Source: Actinomycetes bacterium
Lineage (GTDB): Bacteria > Actinomycetota > Acidimicrobiia > Acidimicrobiales > Poriferisodalaceae
Assembly (NCBI GenBank): GCA_024228575.1
Contig: JAAETH010000115.1
Location: forward strand, 1 to 36,374
Reading direction: 5' to 3'
DNA length: 36,374 bases
In this document: positions 23,634-33,358 of the stretch, piece by piece
How the letters are laid out: each line of letters begins with the position of its first letter
Position numbering within the stretch: position 1 is the first letter of the stretch
Position numbers and translations under genes: made by a program
Notes under the pieces: model-generated
The model's database searches: none
Told to the model about the DNA's origin: nothing
The model's input: only the letters and a program-made list of their open reading frames with translations

Positions 23634-23706
23634 ATCAGGCGCGGACCACCAGTGTCGAGCAGATCTTGTCGTGGAACGTCTGGTTCTTGTCGTCCCAGAG
23701 CGGCCA
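23634..23706. repeat. 73-nt duplicated segment, 3' end of RDD gene 1
   Basis: Matches 24123-24195 at 72 of 73 positions (one difference at 23656/24145). It covers the stop codon and the last 24 codons of each RDD gene. The offset between copies is 489 nt. Confidence 0.9.
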
Positions 23707-24090
23707 GAGATACCCGAGATAACACGGAAGGCTCGACAAGAACGTGGCGAAGAAACGTCCGGTGGCAAGCCCGTAGCCAACCGGGGCCGGGCTCGCGTCT
23801 CTCACGACCTTCACACCAGCCGCCATCTTGCCGACGGTCTGGCCCGTGCTTCCGATCATGAGGACGTGGTAGGCGACAACTCCCAGAATCCAGATCAGGT
23901 ACAGACCGGCGATGGCGCTGCTGTTGGACTGAAAGGCCACCGCCGCCACCCAGAGAGGAACCGACACGATGAGGTAGTCGAGAAACCACGCTCCAACCCG
24001 GCGCCACCAGCCCGAAAGGTGGTAGGTCGGCTGGGGCGAATCGAATACCGGACCGCCGAAGCTGGGCGGTGGTGGTGGCAGATCTGTCAC
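23635..24090 (-). CDS. RDD-family membrane protein, downstream paralogue
   Basis: A 151-residue integral membrane protein. A Pro-rich cytoplasmic start (MTDLPPPPPSFGG) leads to the RDD motif region (WWRRVGAWFLDYLIV), two more hydrophobic stretches and the conserved cytoplasmic segment STGQTVGKMAAGVKVV. It ends with a DDKNQTFHDKICSTLVVR tail that marks the family. The function of RDD proteins is mostly unknown; some act in ion tolerance or transport. GTG 24090 has GGGGGA upstream. It is a tandem duplicate of the next gene on the same strand, 33 nt away. Both ends are almost identical at DNA level while the middle has diverged. Confidence 0.9.
   Translation of the reverse strand: MTDLPPPPPSFGGPVFDSPQPTYHLSGWWRRVGAWFLDYLIVSVPLWVAAVAFQSNSSAIAGLYLIWILGVVAYHVLMIGSTGQTVGKMAAGVKVVRDASPAPVGYGLATGRFFATFLSSLPCYLGYLWPLWDDKNQTFHDKICSTLVVRA
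24002..24048. repeat. 47-nt duplicated segment, 5' part of RDD gene 1
   Basis: Identical over 47 nt to 24491-24537 (same 489-nt offset). It encodes the PVFDSPQPTYHLSGWWRR region of both proteins. Confidence 0.88.
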
Positions 24091-24122: not shown

Positions 24123-24195
24123 ATCAGGCGCGGACCACCAGTGTGGAGCAGATCTTGTCGTGGAACGTCTGGTTCTTGTCGTCCCAGAGCGGCCA
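24123..24195. repeat. 73-nt duplicated segment, 3' end of RDD gene 2
   Basis: Partner of 23634-23706, with one mismatch. Confidence 0.9.
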
Positions 24196-24579
24196 CAAGT
24201 AGCCGAGGAAACACGGAATTGCAGACAGGAAACCCGCAAAATATCGCCCGGCTGCCAGGCCGTAGCCGACCGGCGCAGGGCTGCCATCGCGAACCACGAT
24301 GATGCCGGTGGCCATCTTGCCGACCGTCTGCCCCCGACTGCCGATCATCAAGATCGAGTAGAGCGCCACGATGGCGATGTTGAGCAAATCGGACAACGCG
24401 TCGCCGGCGATACCTCCGCCCATGGAACTCAAGACGATTCCGCTCGGAATCCCGACGATTATGCCGTCGAGAACCACAGCTCCGAAGCGACGCCACCAGC
24501 CCGAAAGGTGGTAGGTCGGCTGGGGCGAATCGAATACTGGACCACCATAAGCTGGTGGCGGTGGTGGCAGATCTGTCAT
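24124..24579 (-). CDS. RDD-family membrane protein, upstream paralogue
   Basis: A 151-residue paralogue of the adjacent RDD protein with the same length and layout: Pro-rich start, WWRRFGAVVLDGIIV, the GSRGQTVGKMATGIIVV segment and the same DDKNQTFHDKICSTLVVR end. The middle part (GIPSGIVLSSMGGGIAGDALSDLLNIAIVALYS) differs almost fully from its twin, so the two may sense or carry different things, or form a heteromer. ATG 24579 has GGGAG upstream; the in-frame extension to 24609 is not needed. The gene lies 157 nt after uvrB with a hairpin between, so it may start a small RDD-RDD-uvrA unit. Confidence 0.9.
   Translation of the reverse strand: MTDLPPPPPAYGGPVFDSPQPTYHLSGWWRRFGAVVLDGIIVGIPSGIVLSSMGGGIAGDALSDLLNIAIVALYSILMIGSRGQTVGKMATGIIVVRDGSPAPVGYGLAAGRYFAGFLSAIPCFLGYLWPLWDDKNQTFHDKICSTLVVRA
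24491..24537. repeat. 47-nt duplicated segment, 5' part of RDD gene 2
   Basis: Exact partner of 24002-24048. Confidence 0.88.
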
Positions 24580-24701
24580 GGGTCTCCCGACGTCAGGTTC
24601 GCCAAACAATAGTGCGCGCGACCAGGCCGCGAGTCGTTTGTTGTTTGGGGTTCCCTGAAGGATGAGGGCCGCTCAGTCGGGGCTGCCCTTCCACCGATCT
24701 T

Positions 24702-24735: not shown

Positions 24736-26901
24736 TCAGCTGGCGTCGCGCAATTCTCGTTTGAGGTCCTTGATCTCGTCGCGGAGCCTGGCCGCGTACT
24801 CGAAGCGCAGATCGGCCGCCGCATCGGCCATTTCGGCTTCGAGGGTTTGGATGAGTCTCGCCAGCTCGTCGGTGGGCAACTCGGCCAGATCTCGTTTGGC
24901 CCTGTCGGCTCTGCTGGTGGACAGGGCCTCCGGTACGGGTGCCCCCTGATCTGGGCCCCGCAGCACCGCCAGGATGTCGCTGACCGCCTTGCGGACCGTT
25001 TGTGGCTCGATGCCGTGCTCGATGTTGTAGGCCTGCTGAAGGCCACGTCGGCGGTTGGTTTCGGAGATGGCCCGCTGCATCGAGTTCGTGACCCGATCGG
25101 CATACATGACCACCTGGCCGTCGACGTTTCGGGCCGCTCGACCGATCATCTGGATGAGCGACGTCTCGGACCGCAGGAAACCCTCCTTGTCGGCATCGAG
25201 AATGGCCACGAGTGAGACCTCTGGCAAATCGAGGCCCTCGCGGAGCAGGTTGATGCCGACGAGCACGTCGAACTCGCCGAGCCGGAGGTCTCGGAGGATT
25301 TCGATGCGTTCGATCGTGTCGATCTCGCTGTGCAGATAACGCACCCGCACGCCGAGCTCGAGCAGGTAGTCGGTGAGATCCTCGGCCATCTTCTTGGTGA
25401 GGGTCGTGACGAGGATGCGAGCGCCCGAAACGACACGTTCGTTGATCTGCTCGATCAGATCGTCGATCTGGCCCTTTGTGGGTTTGACGATGACCTCGGG
25501 ATCGACGAGACCGGTCGGGCGCACGATCTGCTCGACCACCCGTTCGCTGATCTGTAGCTCATAGTCGCTCGGCGTCGCCGACAAGAACACACATTGGTTG
25601 ATGCGATCGAGCACCTCTTCGAAACGAAGCGGCCGGTTGTCGCGCGCAGACGGCAACCGGAACCCGTGGCCGACGAGAGTGTCCTTCCTGGACCGGTCGC
25701 CGGCGAACTGACCGTGCAGCTGGGGAACCGCCACGTGGCTCTCGTCGATGACCAGCAGGAAATCGTCGGGGAAGAAGTCGAGCAGGGTGAACGGAGGTTC
25801 GTCGAACACGCGCCCGTCGAGATGCATCGAGTAGTTCTCGATGCCATTGCAGTAGCCGACCTCTTGCATCATCTCGAGGTCGTACTCGGTGCGCATACGC
25901 AAGCGCTGGGCCTCCAGCAGCTGGCCCTCGGCTTCGAAGTGTTGAAGGCGGTCGCGTAGCTCGACCTCGATACCGGCGACGGCAGAGGCCAAGATGTCGT
26001 CTGACGTCGAGTAGTGGGTGGCCGGAAACACGGTCAGCTCGGTGAGCTCGCCGAGCCTCTCGCCCGTGAGGGTGTCGACCTTGGTGATGCGCTCGATGTC
26101 GTCACCGAACAACTCGACCCTGACCGCGAACTCCTCGTAGGCGGGATGAAGCTCGATGGTGTCGCCCCGAACGCGGAACTTGCCCCGGATCAGGTTCATG
26201 TCGTTTCGTTCGTACTGCATGTCGACGAGCTGACGCAGGATCTCGCGCTGATCCATCTGGGCACCGAGGCGTAGGTAGAGCATGTTGCGGCGATACTGGT
26301 CCGGAGAACCGAGGCCGTAGATAGCCGAGACGGACGCGACCACGATGACATCGCGCCGTGTGAGCAAGGCGGCCGTGGCCGAATGCCGCAACCTGTCGAT
26401 CTCGTCGTTGACCGAGGAGTCCTTCTCGATGTAGGTGTCGCTCGAAGGCATGTAGGCCTCGGGCTGGTAGTAGTCGTAGTAGCTGACGAAGTACTCGACC
26501 CGGTTCTCGGGAAAGAACTCCTTGTACTCATTCGCGAGCTGTGCGGCCAGGGACTTGTTGGGCGCCAGGACAAGCGTTGGCCGCTGGACCTGCTCGATGG
26601 CCCACGCCACCGTTGCGCTCTTGCCCGACCCGGTGATGCCCAACAGCGTCTGGAAACGTTCACCGGCCTCGACACCCTCTGCCAGGGAGGCAATCGCCTT
26701 GGGTTGATCGCCGGCGGGGTCGAAATCGGAGACGACCCTGAACGGCGGCGAATGCCCGTCCTCGCCCAGGAGAGGTGCCTCGTTCGGCTCGAACCCGGTT
26801 GCACTGGAGCCCGACGGACCCCGCGAGCCATCCCCGGAACTCTTGCCCGCATCGGCATCCGAGGGGTTATTTGCTGCGACATCGACCACGCTCAACAGCA
26901 T
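24736..26901 (-). CDS. uvrB: Excinuclease ABC subunit B
   Basis: Helicase-like damage verifier loaded by UvrA, which then recruits UvrC. The 721-residue protein has a poorly conserved, Ser/Gly/Asp-rich first 52 residues before the family start [17 protein letters not shown]. Walker A GITGSGKS lies at 88-95, followed by the beta-hairpin [17 protein letters not shown] and the helicase motif DESH. The [11 protein letters not shown] region, motif VI IGRAARN and a C-terminal UVR helix pair ([18 protein letters not shown]) complete it. ATG 26901 is taken as the start but has no ribosome site, and GTG 26919 is an alternative, so the extra N-terminus may be longer or shorter. No clear SOS box is seen upstream. 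Confidence 0.96.
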
Positions 26902-26935
26902 ATTGAGGGGGTGAGACACTCCTCGCACACATGTC

Positions 26936-26969
26936 GATCGGCCTATTCCGGCAAACAAATCGGCCGATC
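26936..26969. promoter_or_regulatory. Inverted repeat in uvrB / acidic-protein divergent gap (1)
   Basis: GATCGGCC (26936-26943) and GGCCGATC (26962-26969) are perfect 8-nt arms with an 18-nt centre, 35 nt before the uvrB start. This could be an operator or an RNA hairpin in the uvrB leader. Confidence 0.35.
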
Positions 26970-26979
26970 TTGGCATCTA

Positions 26980-27066: not shown

Positions 27067-27588
27067 ATGGCCGACGACATCGACCCCGCAGAAGCCGAAC
27101 CAGACAACGACGCCGACCTCGAAGGCGAGGACGAGCTCGAAGGCGATCTCGACATCGAAGACGATCTCGGTGACGAGGTCGCCGACGACGACGATGGCGA
27201 AGACGCCGCCGACGAGGACGCCGACGCCGACGGCGACGGCGATGGCAAGCCAGCGCGCCCGGGCGAAGACGACGACGACGACGACGAGGACGAGGACGAT
27301 GTCGAGGCCGACCTCGATGCGATCCTGAAGGAACGCCTCGCCGAAGAAGACGACGACGAGGAAGAGGACGACGAAGAGGAAGTTGTCGTCACGACCAAGT
27401 CGAAGTCGAAAGCGAAGAAGCCGGCGACCAACGACGACGAACCCGAGGGTCGCGCCGACGACGAACACATCTGCAATCTGTGTTTCCTGCTCGTCCGCGA
27501 AAGCCAGCTGGGCCCAAAGGGCGCACGCAGCTGTCCCAGTGGAGAACTCGAGTCCGACTGCCCGGCCATCACCTATTTCGACGGCTGA
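27067..27588 (+). CDS. Extremely acidic protein with C-terminal four-Cys (zinc-ribbon-like) motif
   Basis: A 173-residue protein. Most of residues 1-107 are Asp and Glu with Ala and Gly, broken by a short helix (VEADLDAILKERLAEE, 79-94). A basic patch (TKSKSKAKKP, 110-119) follows, then a compact end with CNLC (136-139), Cys156 and Cys165, spaced like a zinc ribbon. The layout resembles the actinobacterial DUF4193 family: acidic arm, LDAILKERL-type helix, then a CxxCFLV-like start of the metal site. The fit is partial, and function is unknown for that family as well. The acidic arm could mimic nucleic acid or bind basic proteins. ATG 27067 has AGGAA 9 nt upstream. It is a lone plus-strand gene between uvrB and the coaE fusion. 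Confidence 0.8.
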   Translation: MADDIDPAEAEPDNDADLEGEDELEGDLDIEDDLGDEVADDDDGEDAADEDADADGDGDGKPARPGEDDDDDDEDEDDVEADLDAILKERLAEEDDDEEEDDEEEVVVTTKSKSKAKKPATNDDEPEGRADDEHICNLCFLLVRESQLGPKGARSCPSGELESDCPAITYFDG

Positions 27589-27601: not shown

Positions 27602-30010
27602 CTAGGCGCGCCCAGCCGCTTTCAGGGCGGCGTCGAGCTGAGACTCGACGATCGACAGACCTCCATGCCAGAAGTCGGGGTCGGTCAGATCACATCCGAC
27701 CTTGGCCCCGAGATCCTCGGGTGGCAGCGAACCGCCGGCCGAGAGTAGGCCCAGATAGTCCTCGACGAAGTCTGGACCCTCGATCTCGTACTGGTGGTAC
27801 ACCGACAGGGCCAACAGCTGCCCGTACGCATAGGCGTATACGTAGCCGGGGGTCGCGATGAAATGGGGCACATAACTCCACCAGTCCCGATATCCCTCCG
27901 AGATCGTGACCGAGTCGCCCAACATGTCTGCCTGGGTCTCGACCCAAAGTTCGCCAAATCGCTCCACGGACAGCTCGCCGACCTCGCGACGCTCGTCGTG
28001 AGCTGCGTCCTCGAAGCGATTCATCGCCGTCTGGCGGAATACGGTGGCGATCGAACCTTCGATGTTCTCAGCCAGCAACGCGAGCCGCTCAGCAGGGTCT
28101 GTGGTGTGTTCGAGCACCCGATTGAACGTAACCGTCTCGCCGAACACCGAGGCCGTCTCAGCGAGCGTGAGCGGTGTCTGGAAGTGGAACAGCCCTTGCG
28201 GGCGGCTCAGGTAGGCGTGACAACCGTGGCCGAGTTCGTGAGCGAGCGTCATGACGTCGCGCGACTTGCCAGTCCAGTTCAAGAAGACGTACGGATGGTG
28301 CGACGGCACTGCATAGGAACAGAACGCACCCGGCCGTTTCGATGGGCGTACGGGGCCGTCGATCCACTTCTCGTCGACAAATCGGCGAGCCACATCGGCC
28401 AGCTTCGGCGAGAACGAGTCATAGGCGTCGATCACCAACTCGGTGGCCTCTCTCCATCCGACCTCGCTCTCGGCCTCGGCCACGGACGCCATGCGGTCGT
28501 AGTCGTGTAGTTCGATGCCGAGCATCTCGGCCTTCGCTCCATACCAACGATGAGGAATGTCGTACCGAGAGACCACGGCGTCGATGAGCGCCTGAACGGA
28601 TTCGTCGGTCGCTTCGTTCGATAGGTTGCGGCTCGACACCCACGACGGATAGCTGCGAAGGCGATCATCGGTGGACTTGTCGGCGAGCAGGGTGTTGTAG
28701 ATGAACGCCCGTGTCGACAGTGTCGGCTGCAGGCCCTCGTTGACTCTCTGAGCCACACCTCTGCGCACCTCGGGGTCCGGCGAGGCCAGCTGAGCCAGAG
28801 CCTCGGCGAGGCTGACACGGCCCCCGGAATCGTCGCCCTCGGACTCCGCCGGTGCCGTCTCCACGGTGATCTCGGACGAGAGCTGGCTGAACAACCGCGA
28901 CCAGGCGCTGGAACCGGTGACCGACTTCTCGGTCAGAACAGCTTCCTCGGACTCGGAGAGAAGGTGATCCCGGTAGCGCCTGGACGAGCGCAGGTAATGA
29001 GCACAGAACTCGAGGTCGGGGTCCGACAACAAGCTCTCGGCGACGTCATCGTCGAGGGCCGCCCACTCGAGTTCGACGAACAACAGTTGGGTGGACAGGC
29101 GGGCGGCTCGTTCCTGCACCGCCTGGAACAACGCACCATCGCCGGTATCGACCGAGAACCTCAACTGGGCGTAGGACCCAGCCCGATAGATGGCTTCCTC
29201 GATCGTTTCGATCTCGCGCATCAGCTCGACGAGTCGATCCGATGCGATCGACGAGAGCTGCCCCTTGAACCTCTGAACCCGGCCGACCGCCGTTTCGGCC
29301 TCATCGAGCCACGCGTCGACCGAAGCGTCTACCGACAACCCATCGCGAACGACAAGATCGTCGATCATCCACGCAACATCGGCGGCCGTCAGGTCGCGTT
29401 CGTCGCGCATCGATTCCATCCATTGCCAGGCAGCCTCGATCTGGCCTGCGAGGTTGTCGAGACTTCCACCGTTGTCGATGACGAAGTCGGCCATCTCGAG
29501 GCGATCCTCGCGTGTGGCCTGGTTTGCGATTCGTGCCCTGGCATCGGCCTCGTCGAAACCGCGATCCGAGACGAGACGTTCGACGGCAATGTCGACCGGG
29601 CAGTCGACAACCAGCACGGCAGCCATGTCGTGTTTGGACTTGCCGTCCTTGGTGCGCCCTTCGGCCAGCAGTGGAACGTCGAGAATGACGATGTCGCCCG
29701 ACCCTGCGGACTCGACACGATCGCGCATGGCCTTGCCGACCATCGGGTGAACGATGCCGTTCAACGCCTCCAGCTGGTCGCTGTCGTTGAAGACGATCTC
29801 TGCGATGGCAGCACGATCCAGCCGACCGTCGGTGTCGACGATCGAGTCGCCGAAATGCTCGACCATGGCGGTGTGGACGGTACCGCCTGGTTCCTGCAAG
29901 GAGCGGGTGATGGCGTCGGCGTCGACAATGTCAGCGCCGCGCTCTGCGAGCGCGGCGCTGACAGTCGATTTGCCGCTGCCGATACCGCCCGTGAGGCCGA
30001 TGACCGGCAT
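27602..30010 (-). CDS. coaE: Dephospho-CoA kinase fused to M3-family oligoendopeptidase F
   Basis: One uninterrupted 802-codon frame joins two enzymes. Residues 1-195 are dephospho-CoA kinase, the last step of CoA synthesis: P-loop GGIGSGKS (8-15), DADAITR (30-36), the lid near 150-170 (GFDEADARARIANQ) and FVIDNGG. Residues 201-802 form a full M3 oligoendopeptidase: helical N-part, then GAFCSYAVPSHHPYVFLN and zinc site HELGH (591-595) with third ligand Glu618 in LAETASVFGE. The end is GYVYAYAYGQLLALSVY and a C-terminal helix. There is no stop between the parts. An internal ATG at 29410 (Met201) has GGATGGA just upstream, so separate peptidase synthesis is possible, but the kinase cannot end alone. 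ATG 30010 lies 6 nt after the rpsA stop, the usual rpsA-coaE order. Confidence 0.92.
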   Translation of the reverse strand: MPVIGLTGGIGSGKSTVSAALAERGADIVDADAITRSLQEPGGTVHTAMVEHFGDSIVDTDGRLDRAAIAEIVFNDSDQLEALNGIVHPMVGKAMRDRVESAGSGDIVILDVPLLAEGRTKDGKSKHDMAAVLVVDCPVDIAVERLVSDRGFDEADARARIANQATREDRLEMADFVIDNGGSLDNLAGQIEAAWQWMESMRDERDLTAADVAWMIDDLVVRDGLSVDASVDAWLDEAETAVGRVQRFKGQLSSIASDRLVELMREIETIEEAIYRAGSYAQLRFSVDTGDGALFQAVQERAARLSTQLLFVELEWAALDDDVAESLLSDPDLEFCAHYLRSSRRYRDHLLSESEEAVLTEKSVTGSSAWSRLFSQLSSEITVETAPAESEGDDSGGRVSLAEALAQLASPDPEVRRGVAQRVNEGLQPTLSTRAFIYNTLLADKSTDDRLRSYPSWVSSRNLSNEATDESVQALIDAVVSRYDIPHRWYGAKAEMLGIELHDYDRMASVAEAESEVGWREATELVIDAYDSFSPKLADVARRFVDEKWIDGPVRPSKRPGAFCSYAVPSHHPYVFLNWTGKSRDVMTLAHELGHGCHAYLSRPQGLFHFQTPLTLAETASVFGETVTFNRVLEHTTDPAERLALLAENIEGSIATVFRQTAMNRFEDAAHDERREVGELSVERFGELWVETQADMLGDSVTISEGYRDWWSYVPHFIATPGYVYAYAYGQLLALSVYHQYEIEGPDFVEDYLGLLSAGGSLPPEDLGAKVGCDLTDPDFWHGGLSIVESQLDAALKAAGRA

Positions 30011-30016
30011 GGGTTG

Positions 30017-31480
30017 TCAGTCCTCGGCGGGCTGATCGTCGGCCGGGGCCTCTTCAGCTGCCTCGACCGCTGGCTCATCGTCGAGCACACCGGCCGGGTC
30101 GTCGCCGGCACCATACTCCGATACTGCTTGACGGTAGGCCTCTTCGCCATACTGCTCGTAGTACTCGCGCCAGGCCTGGCGGGCTTCTTCGGTGTAGTCG
30201 ACGACGCCCTCTTCGTTGGTGGTGAGGGTGTCATCGCCGATGTAGTTGCCGTCGGCGTCGTACTTGTCCTCGCCGAATGCGTCCTGGTACTCGGCAGCGA
30301 CGACACCACCCTCGGCAGCCTGCTTGATCGAAAGGCTGATGCGGCGACGCTGGAGGTCGAGATCGATGATCTTGACCCAGAGCTCTTCGCCAGGTGTGAC
30401 GACCTGTTCGGGAAGATCGACGTGGTGGGCAGACATCTCCGAGATGTGCACCAGACCCTCGATACCTTCGCCGACCTGGACGAACGAACCGAACGGAACC
30501 AGCTTGGTGACCCGGCCGTAGACCAGCTCGCCGACGCGGTGCCCAGAAGCGAACTCCTGCCACGGATCCTGTTGGGTCGCCTTGAGCGAAAGGCTGATGC
30601 GTTCACGTTCGCGATCGACCTCGAGAACCTCGACCTGCACCTCGTCGCCGACGGCGACAACAGAACCGGGGTGGTCGACATGTTTCCACGACAGCTCGGA
30701 CACGTGGATGAGTCCGTCCATTCCGCCGAGGTCGACAAATGCGCCGAAGCTGACGACGGACGAAACAACGCCGGGGCGGCGTTCCCCCGGCTTGAGGTTG
30801 TCGAGGAACTCCTCGCGCTGTTCCTTCTGGGTCTCCTCGAGCCAGGCGCGGCGGGACAGGACCACGTTGTTGCGGTTCTTGTCGAGCTCGATGATCTTGG
30901 CCTCGAGGTCCATACCGACGTAGGGCTGGAGATCGCGTACGCGGCGCAGCTCGACCAACGATGCGGGCAGGAAGCCGCGGAGGCCGATATCGACGATGAG
31001 ACCACCCTTGACAACCTCGATGACCGGGCCCTTGACGACGCCGTCGGCTTCCTTGACCTCTTCGATCTTGCCCCAGGCACGCTCGTACTGAGCACGCTTC
31101 TTGGAGAGGACCAGGCGACCCTCGGTGTCTTCCTTCTGGAGGACGAGCGCTTCGATCGCGTCGCCGATCGCTACGACCTCGGCTGGGTTGACGTCGTTGC
31201 GGATACTCAACTCTCGTGAGGGGATAACACCTTCGGACTTGAAACCGATGTCGAGCAGGACTTCGTCCCGGTCGACCTTGACGACGGTGCCGTTGACGAT
31301 GTCACCGTCCTCGAACTCAACGATCGTGCCGTCGATTGCGTCCTCGAAAGACATGCCGTCGAGGTCATCCTCGACGATGGTGCGCGGGATGTAGTCGCCA
31401 GCGTCGGTGAAGGTACCGAACTCGTCTGACATGTCGTTCGACGAGAGGGTGGCGGCGGTGGAATTGGTGGTATCGGACAA
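30017..31480 (-). CDS. rpsA: 30S ribosomal protein S1
   Basis: Binds mRNA and helps the small subunit start translation. The 487-residue protein has four S1 domains (about 59-129, 147-213, 232-302 and 317-389), with the most typical in third place (VVSFGAFVDLGGMDGLIHVSELSW). An acidic tail follows (390-487, ending AADDQPAED-like), unlike the longer enterobacterial six-domain protein but usual for actinobacteria. TTG 31480 gives the longest frame with coding-like third positions; ATG 31432 (MSDEFGTFTD) is a real alternative, and neither has a clear ribosome site. It is followed 6 nt later by the coaE fusion and is divergent from the DUF3048 gene. Confidence 0.95.
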   Translation of the reverse strand: MSDTTNSTAATLSSNDMSDEFGTFTDAGDYIPRTIVEDDLDGMSFEDAIDGTIVEFEDGDIVNGTVVKVDRDEVLLDIGFKSEGVIPSRELSIRNDVNPAEVVAIGDAIEALVLQKEDTEGRLVLSKKRAQYERAWGKIEEVKEADGVVKGPVIEVVKGGLIVDIGLRGFLPASLVELRRVRDLQPYVGMDLEAKIIELDKNRNNVVLSRRAWLEETQKEQREEFLDNLKPGERRPGVVSSVVSFGAFVDLGGMDGLIHVSELSWKHVDHPGSVVAVGDEVQVEVLEVDRERERISLSLKATQQDPWQEFASGHRVGELVYGRVTKLVPFGSFVQVGEGIEGLVHISEMSAHHVDLPEQVVTPGEELWVKIIDLDLQRRRISLSIKQAAEGGVVAAEYQDAFGEDKYDADGNYIGDDTLTTNEEGVVDYTEEARQAWREYYEQYGEEAYRQAVSEYGAGDDPAGVLDDEPAVEAAEEAPADDQPAED

Positions 31481-31624
31481 GGTGAGCTACTCGATTGGAT
31501 GGTAGGGACAGAGCTGTCGGCAGACCGGAGACTGCGCGACTACTCGAGCGCGCTATACGCCGCACACAGGCTACACGCGTGAAGAGGCGATTGTGTGAGA
31601 CCAGGTGCCGTACTCTCTTCACCG

Positions 31625-33358
31625 ATGACAAAACTGTACTCCTCTCTACTCGTCTGCGCTCTCACCGCGATCTCGTTCGCCACAACACCAGCCGAGACGG
31701 CGAGCGCTGCCGACCCTGCGACCGACTTCAATGCCGACGTTCACGCGTTCGGGGTGCCGTTCTACGGCGACACCGCCGAGATCGAGCCGGTCAAGCGCAT
31801 CACGACCATGGCCGCCACCCCCGATGGTGGCGGCTACTGGTTGGCCGCATCCGACGGAGGCATCTTCGCGTTCGGCAACGCACCGTTCCTCGGATCACTC
31901 GGCGACCTGACCCTCAGAGAACCAATCGTCGGCATGGCCGCCCACCCTTCGGGCAACGGCTACTGGCTGGTCGCATCCGACGGAGGTGTGTTCGCGTTCG
32001 GCAACGCACCGTTCCTCGGGTCACTCGGCGACCTGATTCTCGACAAACCAATCGTCGGCATGGCCGCCCACCCTTCGGGCGACGGCTACTGGCTGGTCGC
32101 ATCCGACGGAGGTGTGTTCGCGTTCGGCGCCTCGAGGTTCCTCGGGTCGATGGGCGGAATTCCCTTGAACAAGCCGGTCGTCGGAATGGCTCCGAGCCCC
32201 GAGGGCGACGGCTACTGGCTGGTCGCATCCGATGGAGGCATCTTCGCGTTCAACACCCCGTTCCTCGGAAGCACCGGCGCCCTCACACTCGACCAGCCTG
32301 TCGTCGACATGGCGGCAACATCGTCTGGAGGCGGCTACTGGATGGCCGCAGCCGATGGCGGCTTGTTCGCTTTTGGCGATGCCGGTTTCTTCGGCTCAGC
32401 CGCTACACAAACCCGAGGTGAACCCGTCGTGGGCATGGAGGCCGCGCCGGACGGCAGCGGCTACTGGATGGTCAGGGCAGCGGGACCACATTGGCCGTTG
32501 ACGGGTCTGCCGACAGACGTTGTGAACCCCCGACCCGCTCTTGCCATCAAGATCGACAACCACTCGGGGGCTCGTGGTCAGTGGGGTCTCGCCCAGGCCG
32601 ATGTCGTCTTCGAGGAGCAGGTCGAAGGAGGGCTGACAAGGTTCATCGCCGTGTTCCACAGCAATGACGCCAACCCCGTTGGGCCGATCCGCTCGGCTCG
32701 CGAGTCCGACCTCCAGATCCTGCCGATGTTCGGCGACAGCCTTCTGGCGTTCTCGGGCGGCAACAGCTTCGTGCGGTCGATCGTGACCGATTCCCCATAC
32801 GTTCAGGGAATCTGGCCAGACGCCGAATACGGGGGCGCCTACTACCGAACCTACCGGCGGTCGGACCCACACAATCTGCTGGCCCAGACTTCGAGTTTCT
32901 GGTCGTTCGCCGAACCCGGCCGCACATTGCCGAACCAGATCTTCGAGTACCGCGAACAGGTACCGGTCGATCCCCTCGGCAACGACACCACCACCATCTC
33001 GCTCGATTTCGGCGTCCAGACGGCCTCATGGCATTGGGAGGCAGGTCGCTACGTCAGATCGCACAGCGCCTATGCCCACCTCGACGCTGACCTCGCACGG
33101 GTCGACGCCAGCAACGTGATCGTGCTCGAGACGCCATACACGAACAGTCCCTCAACGGGATCTCCGGTGGTCAACGCACTCGGGTCTGGTCGAGGCATCG
33201 CGATGATCGACGGTCGAAACGTCGAGGTCACGTGGTCGAGGCCTTCGCTCACCGAACCCTTCACACTGACCCGACAGGACAACGGTGCGGCGGTGCTGCT
33301 GACACCTGGAAGGACCTGGGTAGAGCTGGTCCCCGCCGGCAACACCCCGTTCGTGTGA
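31625..33358 (+). CDS. Secreted protein: 42-residue repeats fused to DUF3048 (YerB-like) domain
   Basis: A 577-residue exported protein. A signal peptide (1-28, cut near ASA-AD) precedes five full and one partial copies of a 42-residue unit (about 58-285) with core GYWLVASDGGVFAFG and FLGSLG, likely blades of a beta-propeller. The DUF3048 domain follows (about 290-577): LTGLP, ALAIKIDNHSGARGQWGLAQ, VGPIRSARESD and a C-terminal half ending VELVPAGNTPFV. DUF3048 proteins such as YerB are surface proteins of unknown activity; the repeat unit is common in exported Acidimicrobiia proteins. ATG 31625 is chosen for the signal peptide; TACTCT 8 nt before it may be a -10 box. The gene is 7 nt from the following methyltransferase. 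Confidence 0.9.
   Translation: MTKLYSSLLVCALTAISFATTPAETASAADPATDFNADVHAFGVPFYGDTAEIEPVKRITTMAATPDGGGYWLAASDGGIFAFGNAPFLGSLGDLTLREPIVGMAAHPSGNGYWLVASDGGVFAFGNAPFLGSLGDLILDKPIVGMAAHPSGDGYWLVASDGGVFAFGASRFLGSMGGIPLNKPVVGMAPSPEGDGYWLVASDGGIFAFNTPFLGSTGALTLDQPVVDMAATSSGGGYWMAAADGGLFAFGDAGFFGSAATQTRGEPVVGMEAAPDGSGYWMVRAAGPHWPLTGLPTDVVNPRPALAIKIDNHSGARGQWGLAQADVVFEEQVEGGLTRFIAVFHSNDANPVGPIRSARESDLQILPMFGDSLLAFSGGNSFVRSIVTDSPYVQGIWPDAEYGGAYYRTYRRSDPHNLLAQTSSFWSFAEPGRTLPNQIFEYREQVPVDPLGNDTTTISLDFGVQTASWHWEAGRYVRSHSAYAHLDADLARVDASNVIVLETPYTNSPSTGSPVVNALGSGRGIAMIDGRNVEVTWSRPSLTEPFTLTRQDNGAAVLLTPGRTWVELVPAGNTPFV
31796..32479 (+). repeat. 126-nt coding tandem repeats in the DUF3048 gene
   Basis: Five full units and one partial unit of about 126 nt encode the 42-residue repeats. 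Units 2 and 3 are closest, sharing long identical DNA runs over the SDGGVFAFG part, which suggests recent unit duplication or conversion. Units 5 and 6 are the most diverged. Confidence 0.85.

Follow-up and report, generated by a model that had tools for sequence, protein, structure and literature searches.

The dephospho-CoA kinase of animals is joined to the enzyme that precedes it in the same pathway. This bifunctional CoA synthase (PPAT-DPCK; PDB 2f6r) resembles the protein that we describe here in that the kinase sits within a larger fused protein, whereas the partner of our CoaE has no known link to CoA. The mycobacterial CoaE-UPF0157/GrpB proteins (Rv1631; PDB 6n39 from M. paratuberculosis) offer a second likeness, an N-terminal CoaE with another domain fused behind it, and M. 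tuberculosis CoaE (Rv1631) depends on this second domain to fold (PMC2765170). However, the mycobacterial partner is a UPF0157/GrpB domain of about 211 residues, whilst ours, an M3 zinc peptidase, has about 600; the NCBIfam profile for the CoaE-UPF0157 type (NF002879) stays below its cut-off of 215 bits at 197.8, matching over 3-191 of its 395 positions, i.e. the CoaE part only, and a Pfam search of the fused protein gave no match to a GrpB domain. On the peptidase side, the stand-alone M3B oligoendopeptidases of the Acidimicrobiia, relatives of 2qr4 and 3ce2, have the same fold and zinc site, but are encoded by separate genes unlinked to coaE. Our search for literature on the two enzymes together found nothing relevant. 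Fusions to the C-terminus of CoaE are thus already known as such, but the coaE-peptidase architecture is apparently undescribed, and adds a new partner to the few on record.

A dephospho-CoA kinase and an M3 oligoendopeptidase in one reading frame

The window, i.e. the whole stretch of 36,374 nucleotides that was analysed, comes from the genome of an uncultured actinobacterium of the family Poriferisodalaceae (order Acidimicrobiales), hereafter G000. Its relevant features are:

27602-30010, minus strand: fused coaE-pepF gene, 802 aa (list of open reading frames; Pfam and NCBIfam profiles)
29435-30004, minus strand: CoaE domain, residues 3-192, P-loop GGIGSGKST at 8-16 (profiles; Foldseek to 4i1u and other CoaE structures)
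29396-29419, minus strand: junction, residues 198-205 (MESMRDER), stop-free (DNA reading, alignment, model)
29408-29410, minus strand: possible internal ATG start, codon 201, with GGATGGA at 29415-29421 as a weak upstream site (predicted pairing to the 16S tail)
27605-29395, minus strand: M3 oligoendopeptidase domain, residues 206-802, zinc site H591/E592/H595 and E618 (profiles, alignment; Z 30-32 to 2qr4 and 3ce2)
30017-31480, minus strand: rpsA, directly upstream of coaE-pepF, conserved context (profile, synteny)
24736-26976, minus strand: uvrB, downstream anchor of the conserved context (synteny)

The fused gene is a single frame of 802 codons that starts with ATG and runs from CoaE into the M3 oligoendopeptidase with no stop codon between them. 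The N-terminal part matches both the Pfam CoaE family (PF01121; 183 bits at residues 3-184, cut-off 27) and the NCBIfam dephospho-CoA kinase profile (TIGR00152; 152 bits, cut-off 65.6), and holds three conserved CoaE motifs: the P-loop, DAD at 30-32 and DNGG at 179-182. Behind it, residues 235-794 match M3 oligoendopeptidases, with Peptidase_M3_N at residues 315-381 (63 bits) and Peptidase_M3 (PF01432) at 408-782 (131 bits, cut-off 27), and a zinc site formed by HELGH at 591-595 with E618, of which H591, E592, H595 and E618 are nearly invariant in an alignment of 27 sequences. Since each half matches a large family over its full length, chance can be dismissed. The profiles and the DNA reading thus bear out what an earlier note on this DNA had claimed, namely a complete CoaE and a complete M3 peptidase in one stop-free frame, with Glu618 as the third zinc ligand.

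The naming of the C-terminal part requires some care. The score for the NCBIfam profile of M3 family oligoendopeptidases (TIGR02290) falls narrowly below the cut-off, at 544 against 561.7 bits, as does that of an unfused orthologue from the same family of bacteria (G005; 537 bits), such that this peptidase subgroup sits just outside TIGR02290. The PepF equivalog (TIGR00181) reaches only 270 of the required 490.6 bits. Since the one cut-off is missed and the other narrowly so, the right name is M3 oligoendopeptidase, and not PepF in NCBI's strict sense.

In an AlphaFold model of the fused protein (27 sequences, in which two rows read through a TGA and serve as guides; mean pLDDT 82.8), both domains are predicted as complete folds. 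The CoaE part ends in a helix at 184-200, followed by little regular structure to around residue 226, and then by the peptidase; no long helix intervenes from the end of CoaE until 227. Foldseek assigned one part of the model to CoaE structures such as 4i1u, and the other to the M3 peptidases 3ce2 and 2qr4, which VIA-align superposed on it with Z 31.9 (569 residues, rmsd 4.3) and Z 30.1 (514 residues, rmsd 3.7), respectively.

The junction is open in two genera

Eight codons (ATG GAA TCG ATG CGC GAC GAA CGC) separate Trp197, the last conserved residue of CoaE, from Asp206, the first conserved residue of the peptidase. This region reads ...AAWQWMESMRDERDLTAADVAW..., and the codon-position bias in G+C is unbroken across it. 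A second genome of the family, from another genus (G003; contig C445), has a frame that is likewise open across its junction, ...WTWMTNLGSTQNEVSMTADANDPDLTASAVAWDL..., with a linker of about 20 codons between the conserved ends as against 8 in G000. Its contig stops ~90 codons into the peptidase, and another contig starts with the remaining peptidase, followed by uvrB and uvrA; the G003 locus is therefore intact apart from the contig break, with the junction, though not the fused gene from end to end, assembled. With this second open junction, we reject a chance or missed stop, and the concern raised in the earlier note, that this assembly alone might be fused, falls away.

Absent, adjacent and fused peptidases at the coaE locus

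The gene order polA-rpsA-coaE-(pepF)-uvrB-uvrA is conserved, and the peptidase is found in the coaE region of five genomes of the family (G000, G001, G002, G003 and G005), fused in the two already described. In G001 (DRKF01000041.1, isolate HyVt-434) and G005 (JABABU010000001.1), the peptidase gene is the immediate neighbour of coaE and shares its strand and frame, but a TGA separates the two; in G002 (JALSTE010000052.1), coaE ends in a TGA near the end of its contig and the peptidase lies on another. Overall, at least four genomes of four genera have the two genes adjacent. The only other genome of the G000 genus that was compared (G004; 77% complete) lacks the locus. In a further 33 genomes of the family, from six other genera, the query finds matches to its CoaE part only, and the two of these that we examined (G014 and G022) read polA-rpsA-coaE-uvrB-uvrA without the peptidase.

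The peptidase itself is common in the order. A search of 397 genomes of the order returned orthologues that are mostly 57-67% identical to it over nearly the whole length, yet none of ~105 other orthologues from the order and neighbouring groups has coaE within flanks of up to 1.5-3 kb. A general association between coaE and M3 peptidases is thus ruled out within the searched set, the peptidase being unlinked to coaE elsewhere. In a tree of 52 peptidase sequences, the five from the family form one group (support 99/97), within which the fused G000 and G003 peptidases are sisters (99/82) on branches of 0.47 and 0.52, i.e. about 1 substitution per site apart, with the G005 peptidase next to the fused pair.

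A coaE-uvrB fusion in a different genus

A comparable case comes from two congeneric species that share the order of G000 but belong to a different lineage. In G144 (L174:2714-5428), coaE and uvrB, its usual downstream neighbour, share one frame of about 904 codons, and the congener G320 (L185), 95% identical, shares the fusion. As in G000, the coaE stop has been lost into the downstream neighbour, although both the partner and the lineage differ. In G411, coaE and uvrB keep a common frame but are parted by one stop, and in G381 one coaE-uvrB match holds a single stop inside. G144 was among ten long CoaE frames in the matches listed by our class and phylum searches; eight others (G056, G785, G838, G841, G047, G999, G891 and G850) were rejected as fusions, being merely extended upstream of a CoaE of 197-206 codons, and the tenth (G734) is a frame of 307 codons. 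No other CoaE-peptidase frame appeared among the matches listed in the phylum search, which are the best ones.

Together, the peptidase fusion, the UvrB fusion and the mycobacterial CoaE-UPF0157 protein (PMC2765170) suggest that the C-terminus of CoaE tolerates passengers, and that the loss of a stop between tightly packed genes on the same strand may be enough to supply one. Indeed, the pairings of the kinase with a peptidase and with UvrB have no functional logic in common; both simply join coaE to the next gene.

Origin of the fusion

We consider a true gene fusion in two steps, with a probability of around 75%, to be the best account of this locus. An M3 oligoendopeptidase gene of a kind common in the order would have entered the polA-rpsA-coaE-uvrB-uvrA cluster immediately after coaE, in an ancestor shared by a few genera, and the coaE stop codon would later have been lost in the lineage leading to the G000 and G003 genera, merging two genes that already shared strand and frame. 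This order of events is argued by the unfused neighbours in G001 and G005, by the genomes of the family with coaE only, and by the orthologues that lie away from coaE. Given that in a different genus of the order coaE has joined uvrB, the gene that follows it there, the loss of a stop into whatever gene comes next is the simplest cause. The gene merger downstream of rpsA-coaE that the earlier note had put forward is therefore supported, both by relatives in which the genes are still separate and by a sister genus that shares the fusion. A single fusion event probably preceded the split of the two fused genera, judging from the tree, but the linkers differ in length, and there may instead have been two separate stop losses.

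Most likely, the kinase at the N-terminus of the product would make CoA and the zinc peptidase at its C-terminus would trim oligopeptides in the cytosol, the two enzymes folding independently on either side of a short linker and being made in equal amounts. We infer that both domains are active, that they are produced as a single chain and that their fusion serves no special function. The series of peptidase-absent, adjacent but separate, and fused loci, together with coaE-uvrB, makes a clear natural record of a housekeeping gene gaining a C-terminal passenger. It also carries a warning: a 'Rosetta stone' reading of such fusions could wrongly connect peptide turnover, or DNA repair, with CoA synthesis.

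A possible internal start for the peptidase

Could the one gene yield two products, the full-length fusion and a peptidase started separately at the ATG at 29410 or 29419? The earlier note had proposed the former ATG, and its elements are in place: there are in-frame ATGs at codons 198 and 201, the GGATGGA stretch lies upstream, and G003 retains a Met where pepF probably used to start. The site itself proved weak. For the upstream region, pairing to the 16S tail is predicted at -5.5 kcal/mol, which falls within the background of the window, where 10% of 15-mers reach -6.4 or lower; the equivalent start in G003, at -2.5, lies about the background median, whereas the unfused pepF genes of G001 and G002 have strong sites (-9.5). 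This trend fits the loss of an independent start after fusion. The comparison is not decisive, as the unfused pepF of G005 has a value of -5.2, and such strength can therefore suffice. On balance, we think a second product unlikely.

Possible functional coupling of the two enzymes

Another idea is that the supply of CoA and the turnover of peptides are coupled through the joining of kinase and peptidase, perhaps because binding of dephospho-CoA or ATP alters peptidase activity, or because one domain aids the folding of the other. The fused frame has, after all, persisted over the long divergence between two genera, the adjacency has been kept across four, and the C-terminal domain of M. tuberculosis CoaE is a required partner (PMC2765170). 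On the other hand, the peptidase is not associated with coaE outside this group, relatives with a stop between the genes manage without fusion, UvrB takes the place of the peptidase in another genus, and our literature search found no link between the two enzymes.

A further point against coupling is that G000 encodes a second, stand-alone CoaE (C82:8005-8622; L002:1432-2049) of 205 aa, ~40% identical to the fused one and well above the TIGR00152 cut-off (124.6 against 65.6 bits), and therefore the fused copy need not be the sole source of CoA. Two CoaE genes are found in most genomes of the family, and one in most other genomes of the order. The tethering of peptide turnover to CoA supply that the earlier note had suggested thus gains no support, and we regard such coupling as very unlikely. 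Persistence of the fused frame means that it is tolerated, and is not proof that it is useful; that selection has kept the fusion for mutual regulation or stabilisation of CoaE and the peptidase, with CoA synthesis physically coupled to oligopeptide turnover, is in our judgement highly improbable.

Least credible of all is a base error in the metagenome assembly that erased a stop between two normal genes: a stop could arise by any of three single-base changes in the 8 junction codons, unfused relatives exist and the G000 genome is a draft of 960 contigs, but frame and codon bias run on through the junction, and the open junctions of two independent assemblies, from two genera, make such an error extremely unlikely.

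Genes around the fusion

Several neighbours merit a brief description. In genomes with the peptidase at this locus, the gene for a small and very acidic protein (27067-27588 in the window) separates it from uvrB; the protein has no Pfam match and a cysteine-containing C-terminal end that is conserved in relatives. On the other side, a DUF3048 protein whose N-terminal part carries an array of GGYWLVASDGGIFAFG-type repeats (31595-33358) adjoins rpsA on the opposite strand. Two tandem RDD-family membrane proteins (23635-24090 and 24124-24609) are encoded between uvrA and uvrB; G003 also has two copies, and G005 has one match.
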